From a virus: a stretch of 21,367 bases of DNA. Where the stretch lies: the IMG/VR virus record IMGVR_UViG_3300042301_001253, positions 1 to 21,367 of that record. The stretch is one strand, 5' to 3'. Below, piece by piece: positions 4,986-12,706 of the stretch (position 1 is the stretch's first letter; each line of letters starts with the position of its first letter). The notes under the pieces were generated by a model. That model was not told the origin of the DNA. It worked only from the letters and a program-made list of their open reading frames with translations, and searched no databases. The position numbers were made by a program, and so were the translations under genes.

Positions 4986-6686
4986 TTATTGGGTACTTAA
5001 AACAGGGACAGCAGTTGGCAAAGATTGTCTTAAAGCGTTAATCAAAGCTTGATTTTGTGGGCTTGCTTGAGATGCTAATCTTCTAGCCAGAGCCGGGCTA
5101 TTTAATGCTGAACTTACACCATAAGCAGCAGGAGCCGTTGCTAATATTCTTGGGTCAAAATAAGAGCCAACAGCAAAAGCGCTACCTAAAGTATTTTGAG
5201 CAAAAGCTCGCGGACTGCCGCCTGTTTGCGCGACACGATCAGCAACAAACCTAGACCCCATTTGCGCCGCTTCGCCTAGTGGAGTATTGCTTGCTCCCCT
5301 TCCGTATTGCTGGAATACAGCATTAGGCAACAAAGCGGCAGGAACATCGCCCATTTCTCTACCAGCAACTCCGACCTCACCTTTAGCCAGCAAAGGTTCT
5401 ACCGTTTTGAATGCTCGGTATTGCTGTTTGTTCATAGTCAGCGCGGCAGCATCCTCCGGCGTTAGTCCCCGACCAAATGCGGATAGCACTGATTTTCTAA
5501 GATCGCTTAATAACTTTTGATGAAACCCTTTTTCTCCTTCAGCGACGATTCTTAATCGAGATTGCCAGTTGTTTGCAAAATTACCGGGGATTGCTCCGTT
5601 TTCTTGCCTTCGTAGCAAGTTTCCGATTATCTTGTCAATTTTTGTTATTTGTTCCGGGTCAAGATTTTCAGCAGCTTCTTGTTGTATTTTTGCAATGTCA
5701 TCAGCTAGATTTGAATCTAGTACGAGTTTATTATTCCCCCACAGACGATTAAACTCAGCGCCCAACCTCTTACTCGCGTCGTCCATTACGTCTGGTGTTA
5801 GTTTGTCAAACTCAGCGCCAAAAGATTTCCCTACCTGACGATTAAACCATTCTTGTTTTGCTTTTGCAGCCGCGTTTGCAGGTCGTCCGATTATTGGAAG
5901 GTCAGCTAAAAATGATCGTATTCCTTTGACCATTGCATTTTCAGATAAATCAGCAATACCAAGTGGGGCGCCGGCGGTTAATGCTTTTTTTACTAACGGA
6001 TTATTAACATCTGGACGAATTGCAGAACCTATTGCCTGCCCAGCCATTCCAGCACCACGAACAGCCGCAGGCAATGCAGCGCCAAAAATTGCACCAGTGT
6101 CAGCTTCTTCAGGATTGACCAAACCAGCAGCAGTAGCGCCGGTAGTAGCGCCGCCAGCCGTCCGTAATCCAGCGTTTGCAAGCGTAGCGCCCCTACCGCC
6201 TTGAATGCCGGGCGACACTAAACCGCCACCACGCAGCGCATTGACTATGGCAGGCGCGGCTCTTAGCGCTTGAGCGCCTTTTGCTAAAATTCCGGGCGCG
6301 CCAGCGGTTCCCGCTATTTCAGTAGCAAGTTTACCGCCTTGATAGCTTAAAGACTCAGGCTCAGCGCCCAAGTTTTTTAGCCCTTCCTCTGTCGCCGCTC
6401 GCCTGTCAAATTGTTTGAACCCGCCTACCCCTGTTTTTTCAGACAGGTATTCAGCCGCTACATCTACTGGCTTTAGCAACGTCGCCCCAATATTAGCAGC
6501 GCCGCGAATAGCCCCTAAAGTGCTTTGTACGGGCAGTGAACCCATTACCTCTTGTTTAAGCATTTCTCCGAATGACGGTTTTTGCGTTGCGCCAAGTCGT
6601 TGTTTAACAACTCTCTGGATCACATCCTGAGAAGTTCCTTCGGGAAATTCCAATACTGTACCGTCTGGCAATTCGGCTTCTATCAT
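4986..6686 (-). CDS. Candidate ejection / internal virion protein, large (566 aa)
   Basis: The N-terminal domain ELPDGTVLEFPEGTSQDVI (residues 4-22) recurs at the start of many large injected virion proteins of podoviruses. It is followed by an Ala/Gly-rich, mildly hydrophobic region (about 60-260) that could insert into membranes, then a helical section (270-420) and another Ala-rich end. With the two preceding genes it makes a set of three large helical proteins in the place where T7 (gp14-15-16) and P22 (gp7-20-16) encode their ejection proteins. The role is inferred from layout and composition. No lytic transglycosylase motif is visible. The start overlaps the previous stop (ATGA). Confidence 0.65.
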   Translation of the reverse strand: MIEAELPDGTVLEFPEGTSQDVIQRVVKQRLGATQKPSFGEMLKQEVMGSLPVQSTLGAIRGAANIGATLLKPVDVAAEYLSEKTGVGGFKQFDRRAATEEGLKNLGAEPESLSYQGGKLATEIAGTAGAPGILAKGAQALRAAPAIVNALRGGGLVSPGIQGGRGATLANAGLRTAGGATTGATAAGLVNPEEADTGAIFGAALPAAVRGAGMAGQAIGSAIRPDVNNPLVKKALTAGAPLGIADLSENAMVKGIRSFLADLPIIGRPANAAAKAKQEWFNRQVGKSFGAEFDKLTPDVMDDASKRLGAEFNRLWGNNKLVLDSNLADDIAKIQQEAAENLDPEQITKIDKIIGNLLRRQENGAIPGNFANNWQSRLRIVAEGEKGFHQKLLSDLRKSVLSAFGRGLTPEDAAALTMNKQQYRAFKTVEPLLAKGEVGVAGREMGDVPAALLPNAVFQQYGRGASNTPLGEAAQMGSRFVADRVAQTGGSPRAFAQNTLGSAFAVGSYFDPRILATAPAAYGVSSALNSPALARRLASQASPQNQALINALRQSLPTAVPVLSTQ

Positions 6687-8834: not shown

Positions 8835-9296
8835 TTACCTCAATTCATAAACCATTTCGGTTGCCATATTCTTAAACCCCATTCTTTGCCATAACTTGCT
8901 AACTCTTAAGTCAGTCACGGCTGTACAATAGGCTTTTTGAACGTCAAGTTTTTTTAGTTCAGCCAATACATGCTGCACTAATTTCTTTCCTATGCCATTC
9001 CGATGGTTTCGGGTAACGAATAACGCATCTTCTTTGGCTATTTTATCACCGTTATGCATATCATTGGTAATATAAATCAAACAATATCCGACACATTCAG
9101 CGTCGTGTTTTACAATAAAAAACTTTAACCAGCCATCATTATTAAATTTGATGTACCTGTCTAGTTGCGGATTAAATGGCGAAATTTTTATGCCATCTTT
9201 TTCTAATCGTTCTTTCATTTCTTGGTAATGCTCACTCGTCAATCGGCAAAAATCAGGCAAATTGTTTGCTATTTTTGCTTCATGAAAAGTGTACAT
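8835..9296 (-). CDS. GNAT family N-acetyltransferase (153 aa)
   Basis: Features of the GNAT fold are visible in order: an N-terminal helical region, GWLKFFIVKHDAECVGYCLI (strand, turn, strand), the acetyl-CoA-binding loop RNHRNGIGKKLVQHVL at about residues 96-111, then KAYCTAVTDLRVSKLWQRMG, the usual end of the fold. Such enzymes transfer acetyl from acetyl-CoA to amines of proteins, small molecules or peptides; the substrate here is unknown. It lies between the tail hub and an ejection protein with gaps of only 8 and 2 bases. It is visibly richer in Lys, Asn and Ile and in A+T than its neighbours, suggesting separate acquisition. Confidence 0.88.
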   Translation of the reverse strand: MYTFHEAKIANNLPDFCRLTSEHYQEMKERLEKDGIKISPFNPQLDRYIKFNNDGWLKFFIVKHDAECVGYCLIYITNDMHNGDKIAKEDALFVTRNHRNGIGKKLVQHVLAELKKLDVQKAYCTAVTDLRVSKLWQRMGFKNMATEMVYELR

Positions 9297-9304
9297 ATTT
9301 AGCC

Positions 9305-10828
9305 TTATAAAACAGAGTTGGCAGGCTGGTAGACATAATCGACATTGGTGAATCGTACTTCTGCCCCGTTATTTTGCACTTTAAGCCTTAGTGCGGCAGA
9401 GTTTGCCACCGCCCCGACAGTATTCCAGCCAGTCGTCGAACGTGACCCGCCGCCCCAAACCATTGAACCCCATGTCATTGAACCCCACACCATACCCGTA
9501 GGTGCGACAAAACTTAACGTACCTTGTGGGTCTTGTGCCAGATAGTTTGTATTCAGACCGTAAACAGCAGTCGGGTTTCCGCTTGTTAAAATGTACGGGC
9601 GCACCATGGTGAAATACTTATTGAATGCCTTGTTGCCAAAGTAACCGAAGGCGGTCAGGCAGTCAGATTGAATAGGCGCGGACACGTCAACATTAGACAC
9701 CCACGCTTTGTAGACTTTGGTGTTGTCTGCGTAATAAAGCCCTGTTGAGGCACGCAACAACACGTTCGCATTCCAGCCGGTGAACTTAGTCCATGCGCCA
9801 GTAATTGTGTTTTGTGCGAACTGATACGCCCCGCCGGTTGCCGGTACGTTCAATAACATCATGTTTTCTTCGGGGAAAAGACACAATTGCCACCCGAATG
9901 CTGACGAGAAAGAATTGGCAGCTATTGAGACACTATTCTGTATTTTGTCGGTCAAAGCCACTCGTCTATCGACACTTGCGGACAATAACCCTCTGCCTAA
10001 AGGAAATACACCCTCGGTCGTATTAACAGCTAGATCGCCGCCGTACTTTGCCGCGCATCGTCTGCCTAGTGGTCGCCCAAGCTGAAACACGCCAATGATC
10101 GAAAAATCACCGCCCGCACCTGGATTGCTTCCTCGATAAACCGCTACCTCGCCATTAGTAGATAGCACGACAAAGTGATCGTCAGCGCCAGAGCCAGCGT
10201 CAACCGTCCATGTATAACAAGCCTGAATTGAACCGCCATTTCTAAACACGCTTGACAAGTCAAGAGTGCCAGCAGCGCCCCCAACCTGACCAACCGGCAG
10301 AAATGCCACCGTCATACTGTTTTTAACGACAAAGTACAACCTCGACTTAAACACGCAAACATGCACCAGGCTGGTAGTCGTCACGCCTGTAATCGAAGGC
10401 GACGACGCTCCATCAATGGCCGTCCAAGTGGTCCCATTGAATAACTGAGGCTTATCTACCCCGTTGACCAGGTACAGAAAAGACCCGCCAGCGGTCGTCA
10501 CGTTAGCATCTTGCCATTGCGCCGAAGTCTGGCCGGTAACGACTGCCGCGCCAAGCGTTCCAGCGGTTGTAACGTCAAATATAGACCCGCCAGCCGCAGC
10601 AAATAGCTTAGATACGCCTGACGTTGGAAGATACTCAACCAGCGTTTGCACTGGGTTTGTAAAGCCAGTAACGTGGTTTGCGCTACCTTTTCTGATGCCT
10701 AAGTAACCCGGATATGGCCACCAGTTTTCAAGAATGGGCGCGTACTGAGCAGGCATGTCGGCAATGCTATCGCGGTCATTGAGACCACCAACTGGGGCGG
10801 GAATAGAGGTAGCGCGTGCTGTTGCCAT
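9305..10828 (-). CDS. Tail hub/nozzle, P22 gp10-like (507 aa)
   Basis: The start MATARATSIPAPVGGLNDRD with ENWWPYPGYLGIRKGSANHV is characteristic of the tail-hub (nozzle, packaged-DNA-stabilisation) family of podoviruses. The rest is almost all beta strand with repeated blade-like segments (GSFLYLVNGVDKPQLFNGTT, FKSRLYFVVKNSMTVAFLPV), consistent with a propeller-like hub. Near the C-terminus there is a WGSM-x-WGSM-x-WGG repeat. The product should sit under the adaptor as the distal tail tube and hold the fibres (family knowledge). Its ATG overlaps the preceding TAA by one base (TAATG). Length fits the family. Confidence 0.82.
   Translation of the reverse strand: MATARATSIPAPVGGLNDRDSIADMPAQYAPILENWWPYPGYLGIRKGSANHVTGFTNPVQTLVEYLPTSGVSKLFAAAGGSIFDVTTAGTLGAAVVTGQTSAQWQDANVTTAGGSFLYLVNGVDKPQLFNGTTWTAIDGASSPSITGVTTTSLVHVCVFKSRLYFVVKNSMTVAFLPVGQVGGAAGTLDLSSVFRNGGSIQACYTWTVDAGSGADDHFVVLSTNGEVAVYRGSNPGAGGDFSIIGVFQLGRPLGRRCAAKYGGDLAVNTTEGVFPLGRGLLSASVDRRVALTDKIQNSVSIAANSFSSAFGWQLCLFPEENMMLLNVPATGGAYQFAQNTITGAWTKFTGWNANVLLRASTGLYYADNTKVYKAWVSNVDVSAPIQSDCLTAFGYFGNKAFNKYFTMVRPYILTSGNPTAVYGLNTNYLAQDPQGTLSFVAPTGMVWGSMTWGSMVWGGGSRSTTGWNTVGAVANSAALRLKVQNNGAEVRFTNVDYVYQPANSVL
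9461..9490. repeat. Two-copy 15-bp tandem repeat inside the tail hub gene
   Basis: The two units share cattgaacccca and differ only in the last three bases. On the minus strand they encode the repeated Trp-Gly-Ser-Met segment, so the repeat reflects a coding duplication, not a control site. Confidence 0.75.
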
Positions 10829-11997
10829 TATTTGATGCCCATTAAGCCTAATGGCTGATTGTTGCGCTCCAATATTCTGAGCATGTTTTCATTTCCGGGA
10901 AATACCACAAAGTTTGAAGTGCCAGCGCCAGCGCCGCGACTGCCTTGATCTAAGTATCGAATGCCGGGGATACCTAGCTCATTGAGTCGCAAAGAAACGG
11001 CTTGGGGAGTGTTGCCTAAGTTTGTTCTTCCTGAAGTTATATTGAGCCCAGTTGCATCTTCCAATGCTTCACGCTTTGTCGCGTACGTATTGCCGCCATA
11101 TTCCCAATAGTCGCCGCGATTAACAGGCGCATCGTTTATAGCGTTAATTATTGTTTTGTCGCCTGACTTTAGTAGCGCCGCCCGCACTTCCGGTGCTTGC
11201 TGACTTAATGGCTTATCCCAATCCAGCATTTTTGCTATAGCTTCGTCTGGTAGGTCTACTTTGTAAAGCGCGCCTTCTGGTTTAATAGTTTTTACTATTG
11301 GGCGCTCGCCAGCATCTAATAATTTTAATGCTTGTTTTGCGGAATCGGTAACGGATTTTGCCCCTCCCGGTCTAGCTAATACAGCAAGAGACTGCCGCGC
11401 AGCTTCAACATTTCCAGATTCGTCAGACAATATGCGCGCCAAAAAATGTTTGGGAATTCCTGAATCAAGCAATTGCCCATCAACGTAATCATCAGAATGT
11501 GTTAATGCTGTTTGATATGCTTTTGCCACATCCGGCGACTCTGCCAGATACAACCCATGCCCATACGCTTGCGCGCCTTCGCCAGTTCCGATCTTGCTTG
11601 CGTCGAAACGGTCGAATTTGTGTGGGCTACCGTGCCATACAATCGCCCCGCGTTGTCCAGCAAAGCCAGGGGTGTTTAATGTAGCTGGTGCCATAGCGTT
11701 TTCAATTGCGCGGTTAGCACCTGCCGCTATTTGTGGCGCTTTGGCTGTCGCCGCCATAGGAAAAATCATTCCAAAAGTTTCGCCTACGGTTTTCGGTATT
11801 CCTTCTTGTACTGGAACGGTCAACCCTACATCCTCCATCCAGCGCGAGCCTCCCAACGCGTTTTCAGGAACAGGTACGCCCATTTTGCGAAGCCCAGCGG
11901 CTATTAAGTCCACCGGCGCAGAGACACCGCTTGCTATGGTGTTCGAGGCGCTTTGTGCGGTATCTCGCAGAGCTTTAATTATGGCTTTTTTGTCCAT
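10828..11997 (-). CDS. Phage ADP-ribosyltransferase-domain protein (ART-PolyVal-like), probable virion cargo (389 aa)
   Basis: An N-terminal region of about 115 residues, with a hydrophobic GETFGMIFPMAATAKAPQIA stretch, resembles the leaders of proteins carried in phage virions. A domain like the phage ADP-ribosyltransferases then follows: IVWHGSPHKFDRFD (candidate NAD-binding His122), GAQAYGHGLYLAES (Tyr150) and, near the end, GIPGIRYLDQGSRGAGAGTS followed by NFVVF. Enzymes of this class move ADP-ribose from NAD+ to host proteins. The target and the activity are not known. The gene sits between adaptor and tail hub with gaps of one base or less, so it is co-expressed with the tail. The N-terminal part has no recognised catalytic motif. 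Confidence 0.8.
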   Translation of the reverse strand: MDKKAIIKALRDTAQSASNTIASGVSAPVDLIAAGLRKMGVPVPENALGGSRWMEDVGLTVPVQEGIPKTVGETFGMIFPMAATAKAPQIAAGANRAIENAMAPATLNTPGFAGQRGAIVWHGSPHKFDRFDASKIGTGEGAQAYGHGLYLAESPDVAKAYQTALTHSDDYVDGQLLDSGIPKHFLARILSDESGNVEAARQSLAVLARPGGAKSVTDSAKQALKLLDAGERPIVKTIKPEGALYKVDLPDEAIAKMLDWDKPLSQQAPEVRAALLKSGDKTIINAINDAPVNRGDYWEYGGNTYATKREALEDATGLNITSGRTNLGNTPQAVSLRLNELGIPGIRYLDQGSRGAGAGTSNFVVFPGNENMLRILERNNQPLGLMGIK

Positions 11998-11998
11998 A

Positions 11999-12706
11999 TC
12001 AGCCTGGGAAATTTCCGTCTTGAATGTTCCACTCGGTCAACAGAATATTACGCGGGAATGAGCCAAGTGACAATTTTTGAGCCGATTTGTCCTGCGCTTT
12101 TATGGTATCAAACATGGCGCGAAACTCGGAAACATCAAAGCTTGCATCCAAGCCTTTCGCGGCCTTCCATTGCACCTTGAGGCCGGTCAGCATCAGCGAA
12201 TCATCAAACATTGATACGTCTGTGTCAGCTTGGTACTTGTACCGATAAACCCCGCCGCCAGCATCAATCCAGTTTTTCGAGACATAGAAAAACGAAAGGT
12301 CAAGGCCGCCAGTCGCAGGGTCAACCTCGACGAAGTTATTAGCTATTCTGAAACGAAGATTGGGGCCTTGGCTGATAATGGCTGATTTGTATATCTGCCA
12401 CTCTTGAGTAGTCGCAGGACCTATGAGCGGCCATCGTGACGTTCTATCCCATTCGGTCTGCGGTATTTGTCTGAGCCAGTCAGTAGGCAGTGCATATTGC
12501 GACTGCCCCTGCACCGTGGTGAAGCTGTACTCTTTATTTAGCTTCTGCCACTCATATTGCCGAGAAATGTCACGTCCGAGCCTGTTTGCCAGCGCCAGCA
12601 ATTGAACGACCTGCGGGTCTGTATTGCCGACAACAAAGCTCGGACTTGGTAATAACCCCAACTCGCCGGTGACTTGTTGTATCAGTTCGAGCAGGGTGTA
12701 ATTCAT
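11999..12706 (-). CDS. Head-to-tail adaptor (connector) protein (235 aa)
   Basis: The opening MNYTLLELIQQVTGELGL, then VVQLLALANRLGRDISRQYE and WQKLNKEYSFTTVQGQSQYA, leading to LPTDWLRQIPQTEWDR, is the pattern of the podovirus adaptor family (SU10 adaptor-like, equivalent in role to P22 gp4). Such proteins form a ring under the portal that closes the filled head and receives the tail hub. The helical N-terminus and beta-rich middle with IANNFVEVDPATGGLDLSFF agree. It has a good ribosome site, GAGGAATAA, overlapping the stop of the previous gene, and it lies before the ART gene and tail hub, as expected. Confidence 0.78.
   Translation of the reverse strand: MNYTLLELIQQVTGELGLLPSPSFVVGNTDPQVVQLLALANRLGRDISRQYEWQKLNKEYSFTTVQGQSQYALPTDWLRQIPQTEWDRTSRWPLIGPATTQEWQIYKSAIISQGPNLRFRIANNFVEVDPATGGLDLSFFYVSKNWIDAGGGVYRYKYQADTDVSMFDDSLMLTGLKVQWKAAKGLDASFDVSEFRAMFDTIKAQDKSAQKLSLGSFPRNILLTEWNIQDGNFPG

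Follow-up and report, generated by a model that had tools for sequence, protein, structure and literature searches.

A gene with a conserved leader and a replaceable, here ART-like, cargo at the adaptor/stabilization junction of an uncultivated, probably short-tailed phage

The virus sequence analyzed here, a stretch of 21,367 nucleotides referred to as the window (IMG/VR record IMGVR_UViG_3300042301_001253, positions 1 to 21,367), carries between the genes for the head-tail adaptor and the stabilization protein a one-gene insert composed of a leader, a replaceable cargo and a short tail coupled to the next gene. In related phages the gene is present or absent as a whole, the cargo behind the leader is exchanged, and the leader as well as the core of the ADP-ribosyltransferase (ART)-like cargo domain are kept under constraint. 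We favor, at slightly better than even confidence, the view that it represents an exchangeable effector cassette of the virion-gene operon whose product would be recruited by its leader, co-delivered with the DNA and directed as a NAD+-using ART against a host component. The original prediction, a virion-packaged ART effector made late, holds in part: the data support both an ART-type domain and a leader that forms a unit of its own, encoded among late virion genes.

The gene was found where it had been predicted, on the minus strand (the strand had not been stated), as an open reading frame of 389 amino acids at 10828-11997 in the ORF listing of the window, and the late genes around it all have the same orientation. 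The distances of one base or less claimed for both neighbors proved correct, with a gap of 1 base to the adaptor gene (11999-12706) and a 1-base overlap (TAATG) between the stop codon of the ORF and the start of the gene at 9305-10828.

10828-11997, minus strand: gene for the leader and ART-like cargo, 389 amino acids
11999-12706, minus strand: head-tail adaptor, the upstream neighbor (SU10 adaptor family PF24175, E 9e-11; phrog_6013, E 2e-48)
9305-10828, minus strand: P22 gp10-like stabilization protein or tail hub, the downstream neighbor (phrog_5107, E 8e-108)

The label "amidase" attached to phrog_5107 is misleading, since relatives of the 9305-10828 protein in named phages are annotated as stabilization protein, tubular tail B or head closure. 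For its capsid and stabilization proteins the window has relatives in Myxococcus phages Mx8/Mx9, Stenotrophomonas phage BUCT555 and Bradyrhizobium phage ppBjS10J-1, and it derives from an uncultivated, probably short-tailed (podovirus-type) phage. A GNAT acetyltransferase gene is located 3′ of the stabilization gene (8835-9296); a GNAT gene follows the stabilization gene also in phiGT1, Mx8, BUCT555, ppBjS10J-1 and MW202489, and has been likened to P22 gp14 by the phiGT1 annotators. The protein has 270 relatives in viral contigs, which speaks against a chance observation. Its true start is uncertain, because in relatives such as L005 an upstream in-frame start gives a 401-amino-acid version of the ORF; this extension, present in L005 and others and corresponding to window positions 11998-12033, reaches some 34 nt into the end of the adaptor gene.

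The modular build of the gene is apparent from four loci, L042, L096, L102 and L103, whose DNA identity to the window reaches 97, 95, 89 and 78%, respectively, in the upstream flank and 97, 94, 91 and 79% in the downstream flank. They differ from the window in cargo only: in all four the upstream match breaks off at gene nt 357-368, and the downstream match sets in at nt 1122-1165.

11650-11997, minus strand: conserved N-terminal leader, residues 1-116, predicted helical, described by its own HMM
11630-11641, unstranded: zone of the 5′ breakpoints at which cargos are exchanged (gene nt 357-368), where identity with the four loci ends
10833-10876, unstranded: 3′ breakpoint zone, where identity with the four loci resumes (gene nt 1122-1165)

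The 5′ breakpoints of the four loci lie within 12 nt of one another at the end of the leader, the conserved C-terminal tail of the gene leads into the TAATG overlap with the stabilization gene, and the four cargos are mutually unrelated. In a further locus, L288, the gene is absent exactly, from ATG to ATG, between flanks that share 95.8% and 93.9% identity with the window; the junction joining the adaptor stop to the stabilization start reads TGATATGG. Both this gene and its stabilization neighbor start with ATGG in the window.

Among 72 scored loci selected by their stabilization gene, 58 were empty, five encoded the leader with ART, seven the leader with another cargo or none, and two had an HNH gene only. 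The empty junction is probably the ancestral state, because the adaptor and stabilization genes abut in Mx8, BUCT555, Bradyrhizobium ppBjS10J-1 and MW202489. Minus-strand genes of the homing type HNH_3/NUMOD4 occupy the adaptor/stabilization junction in five loci (confirmed with Pfam in L297, L302 and L316, assigned by resemblance in L111 and L349), and in three of the five the HNH gene stands beside a leader. Large plus-strand ORFs in the slot of these loci were rejected as cargos, being antisense readings of the minus-strand HNH genes. Conceivably, the exchange of cassettes might be driven by the homing endonucleases encoded in this slot.

The leader (residues 1 to about 115) had no match in Pfam, PHROG or NCBIfam. 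Its alignment was used as a query against viral contigs and a leader HMM was then run on the collected loci, where it recognized 97 distinct leader ORFs (a few of them truncated), 54 with the window-type ART and 43 without, counts that are skewed to ART because ART was the query for many of the collected loci; among 14,582 reversed ORFs this HMM had zero matches. The leader is helical with mildly hydrophobic stretches and evolves under purifying selection (dN/dS 0.05-0.33), which holds also for leader-only ORFs; such ORFs of 87-102 amino acids were found in the adaptor/stabilization slot of L121, L297/L310, L302 and L320. In the isolated phages of the collection searched, tblastn with a consensus-like leader query detected no leader. 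Similar-looking N-terminal stretches in the protein encoded at 4986-6686 had raised the idea that the leader is a homolog of the phage's own ejection proteins; it was discarded after hhalign against three putative ones (best probability 1.1%, E 0.05).

Since unrelated cargos sit behind it, the leader is regarded as an independent module. At least 18 cargo clusters from viral contigs, compared through their representatives, show no mutual similarity at E≤1e-4. They include a GNAT domain (L096, 32.8 bits at a Pfam cut-off of 20.7; weaker in L144), an LPD23 domain with a HELQH motif (L137, 49 bits at a cut-off of 27), HELxH proteins (L153, L160), other ARTs (L111, L114, L123, L152, L368) and cargos without a family (L042, L103/L118, L125/L150/L373, L126, L136, L142). 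The cargo domains are of the same kinds as those in giant polyvalent proteins. The cargo that L125, L150 and L373 have in common (39-51% identity) stands behind divergent leaders; by eye it resembles a phage RNase (PBECR), and it had no Pfam match.

The leader is not confined to the adaptor/stabilization junction. Leader or ART genes have been found in other late slots, beside terL, portal, scaffold/MCP and ejection genes. The ART relatives, with or without the leader, precede terL or are found close to portal and scaffold genes (phiGT1, L034, L037) or to ejection genes. Leader genes with a non-ART cargo occupy the terL/portal interval (L137), stand ahead of terL (L153) or have a phrog_3287 virion protein on one side and an ejection protein on the other (L136). 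Most placed leader copies stand among head, neck or ejection genes; those of L125 and L131 are located in lysis regions (after endolysin/spanin) or beside the integrase. From this spread of slots we infer that late expression is general and that location in the particle is likely, albeit not uniform. The N-terminal virion-protein leader of the original prediction has been borne out as a separate module in a late virion-gene context, but because leader genes occur also in lysis cassettes, the evidence is stronger for late expression than for packaging into the virion.

The cargo of the window gene contains all three motifs on which the ART assignment had been based, WHGSP (residues 121-125), GHGLYLAES (146-154) and GIRYLDQGSRG (345-355).

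10849-11649, minus strand: divergent ART-PolyVal-like domain, residues 117-383, with H122 (11632-11634), Y150 (11548-11550) and N362 (10912-10914)
11275-11502, minus strand: insert 1, a hypervariable and mostly helical part of the ART domain (residues 166-241)
10987-11193, minus strand: insert 2, a second hypervariable part of the ART domain (residues 269-337)

The window protein scored 23.3 bits against ART-PolyVal (PF18760), which is under the Pfam gathering score of 31.2, and the same family matched 44 of 45 relatives at E≤0.01 (best 1e-8). A canonical ART-PolyVal profile made of 9 domains, from which members of the window ART clade had been removed, matched the clade in global mode of hhalign with a probability of 97% (E 7e-11); in local mode the match extends over the N-terminal core. 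Zero matches to the ART HMM were obtained among 14,582 reversed ORFs. Within a set of 99 diverse ART domains, reaching down to about 26% identity, H122 is conserved in 98 and Y150 and N362 in all, and G123 and G148 are also kept. PADLOC gave a weak match of the ART start to PDC-M42A (E 0.004).

The active-site His of strand 1 and Tyr of strand 2 of ART-PolyVal/Tox-ART-HYD2 are thus present as H122 and Y150. The Asp of strand 5 is absent, its position being taken by Asn in 99 of 99 domains, mostly preceded by Ser. Judged by the alignment and the general ART fold, N362 presumably opens the strand whose first residue in PARP/ExoA-type ARTs is the catalytic acid. Since polyvalent ARTs have an Asp in strand 5 according to Iyer et al. 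(PMC5512222), the window clade departs from them at the third active-site position. The predicted ART domain is accordingly upheld by H122, Y150 and the homology to the PF18760 profile, but its third catalytic position holds an invariant Asn instead of an acid, and for this reason a protein-modifying activity cannot be assumed.

The two inserts vary between the conserved cores from 53 to 98 residues (insert 1) and from 39 to 109 residues (insert 2) across relatives, and may be considered candidates for target recognition. The gene of L010 (2551-3729), from a phage nearly identical to that of the window, differs from the window gene only in the ART part, around insert 1; this exchange suggests a variable specificity region within the enzyme.

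The model of the full-length protein was of modest quality (pLDDT 71) and gave 24 matches at E<1e-3 among viral models, several of them named ART-PolyVal. The ART-only model, built from the 99 sequences, reached a pLDDT of 85 and a pTM of 0.78. Neither model had a match in the PDB at E<1e-3 (best E for the ART-only model 0.46), and a sequence search of solved structures returned nothing relevant for the single protein and none for the profile. Ten of the 20 best PDB matches of the ART-only model belong to the ART superfamily (RES toxins and ExoA-like, partly redundant), none being individually significant; the RES-family toxins 6fkg, 9r35 and 6gw6 are among the best fold matches and ExoA-type enzymes rank high too. 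Taken together, the ART assignment is well supported by sequence profiles, and the structure search is only consistent with it.

Relatives of the window ART are found also inside giant polyvalent proteins (L083, L085), and the relatives in L076 and L085 add ParB-like, GNAT and NUDIX domains, whereas the window protein has one enzymatic domain and the leader. The product of L085 5568-10052 (Tunturiibacter phage Tunturi_5), annotated as MutT/NUDIX hydrolase only, is in fact polyvalent: it combines NUDIX and GNAT domains with several ARTs, one of which belongs to the window clade. Two distant relatives (26% identity) were found in chromosomal loci of Phocaeicola vulgatus ATCC 8482 (L274, L276).

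T4 Alt is an ADP-ribosyltransferase made late, carried in the phage head and injected. It offers a working analogy to the window ART, but Alt is of the R-S-E type, whereas in those positions the window domain carries H and Y and lacks a Glu. Among isolated phages, Sulfitobacter phage phiGT1 encodes in gp5 (MT584811) an ART of the same clade with 32% identity; unlike the window gene, gp5 lies in a different slot, between portal-side and scaffold genes, and has no match to the window leader. Phage ARTs near head genes, probably packaged, have already been published (PMC5512222, PMC9503650). Polyvalent proteins (PF18760; PMC5512222, PMC9503650) resemble the window family in their ART-PolyVal, GNAT and LPD23 domains, late-gene context and predicted injection, whereas the window family is small and two-part, with one cargo per gene, a short common leader and cassette exchange. 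It follows the layout of leader plus variable C-terminus known from secreted toxins, which polyvalent proteins do not (Iyer et al., PMC5512222). The MuF polymorphic toxins of temperate phages have an N-terminal domain linked to the virion and variable C-terminal enzymes, ARTs and metallopeptidases among them, for which co-delivery with DNA has been proposed (PMC5576092). As late phage genes with a conserved N-terminus and a variable C-terminal effector they are similar to the leader family with its 18 unrelated cargo clusters. In contrast to them, the window protein has no MuF family match in Pfam at E≤1, and its gene is located at the adaptor/stabilization junction (or, in relatives, in other late slots) instead of directly downstream of portal. 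Nor is there a small immunity ORF downstream, the stop codon being overlapped by the stabilization gene; this suggests that the protein encounters its target in the next host and not in lysogen competition.

A late effector might also act unpackaged in the producing cell, in host shut-down, lysis timing or competitor exclusion, with the leader targeting it within the cell, e.g. to the membrane. The leader genes of L125 and L131, after endolysin/spanin and next to the integrase, and the helical, mildly hydrophobic leader stretches point in this direction, but most placed copies stand among head, neck and ejection genes and the cargo domains are like those of giant polyvalent proteins, which are predicted to be injected (PMC5512222), so we hold this explanation to be rather unlikely. 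It is also unlikely, in our estimate, that the cargo is a NAD-consuming enzyme (a glycohydrolase or phosphorylase, RES-toxin-like) instead of an ADP-ribosyltransferase, which would deplete or rewire NAD, e.g. against NAD-based defence: the weak matches to the three RES-family toxins and the third catalytic position without an acid would fit, but the profile similarity is to ART-PolyVal, the H...Y layout is that of PARP/ExoA-type ARTs, and ExoA-type structures rank high as well, every fold match being weak.

Least probable, and quite doubtful, is a structural accessory that decorates the neck and keeps the ART as a dead NAD-site fold for binding. Asn in place of the acid and the tight fit between two tail genes agree with such a role; yet the gene is missing from 58 of the 72 surveyed loci, and the active-site-type residues are near-invariant while the inserts vary freely. 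Because many loci do without the gene and others carry unrelated folds as cargo, no structural role needs an ART fold.

For the co-delivered effector cassette, we infer that the protein is packaged and injected, that it uses NAD and that it has a host target; the grounds are the gene context and published work on virion-packaged ARTs and MuF toxins (PMC5512222, PMC9503650, PMC5576092). The leader would bring the protein to the particle during assembly, close to the neck, and the protein would enter the new host together with the phage DNA. There the ART domain may use NAD+ early in infection, either modifying a host component or depleting NAD. The cargos that differ among phages of the group would presumably be matched to host or rival defences.

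A broader proposal, which we advance tentatively and at somewhat less than even confidence, is that the leader is a general virion-loading/injection domain of podovirus-type phages serving at least 18 cargos, that its slot is shuffled, perhaps by homing endonucleases, and that the H-Y-N ART has an unusual NAD chemistry. Should cargo indeed be loaded into particles by the leader, phages would possess a second polymorphic effector system, independent of MuF, and the leader would serve as a compact delivery tag; dozens of unknown phage genes would be marked as early effectors, some with cargos that have no known relative. The near-identical phages would then constitute a natural series (empty, leader only, leader with cargo A, B or C) for testing the roles of the cargos.
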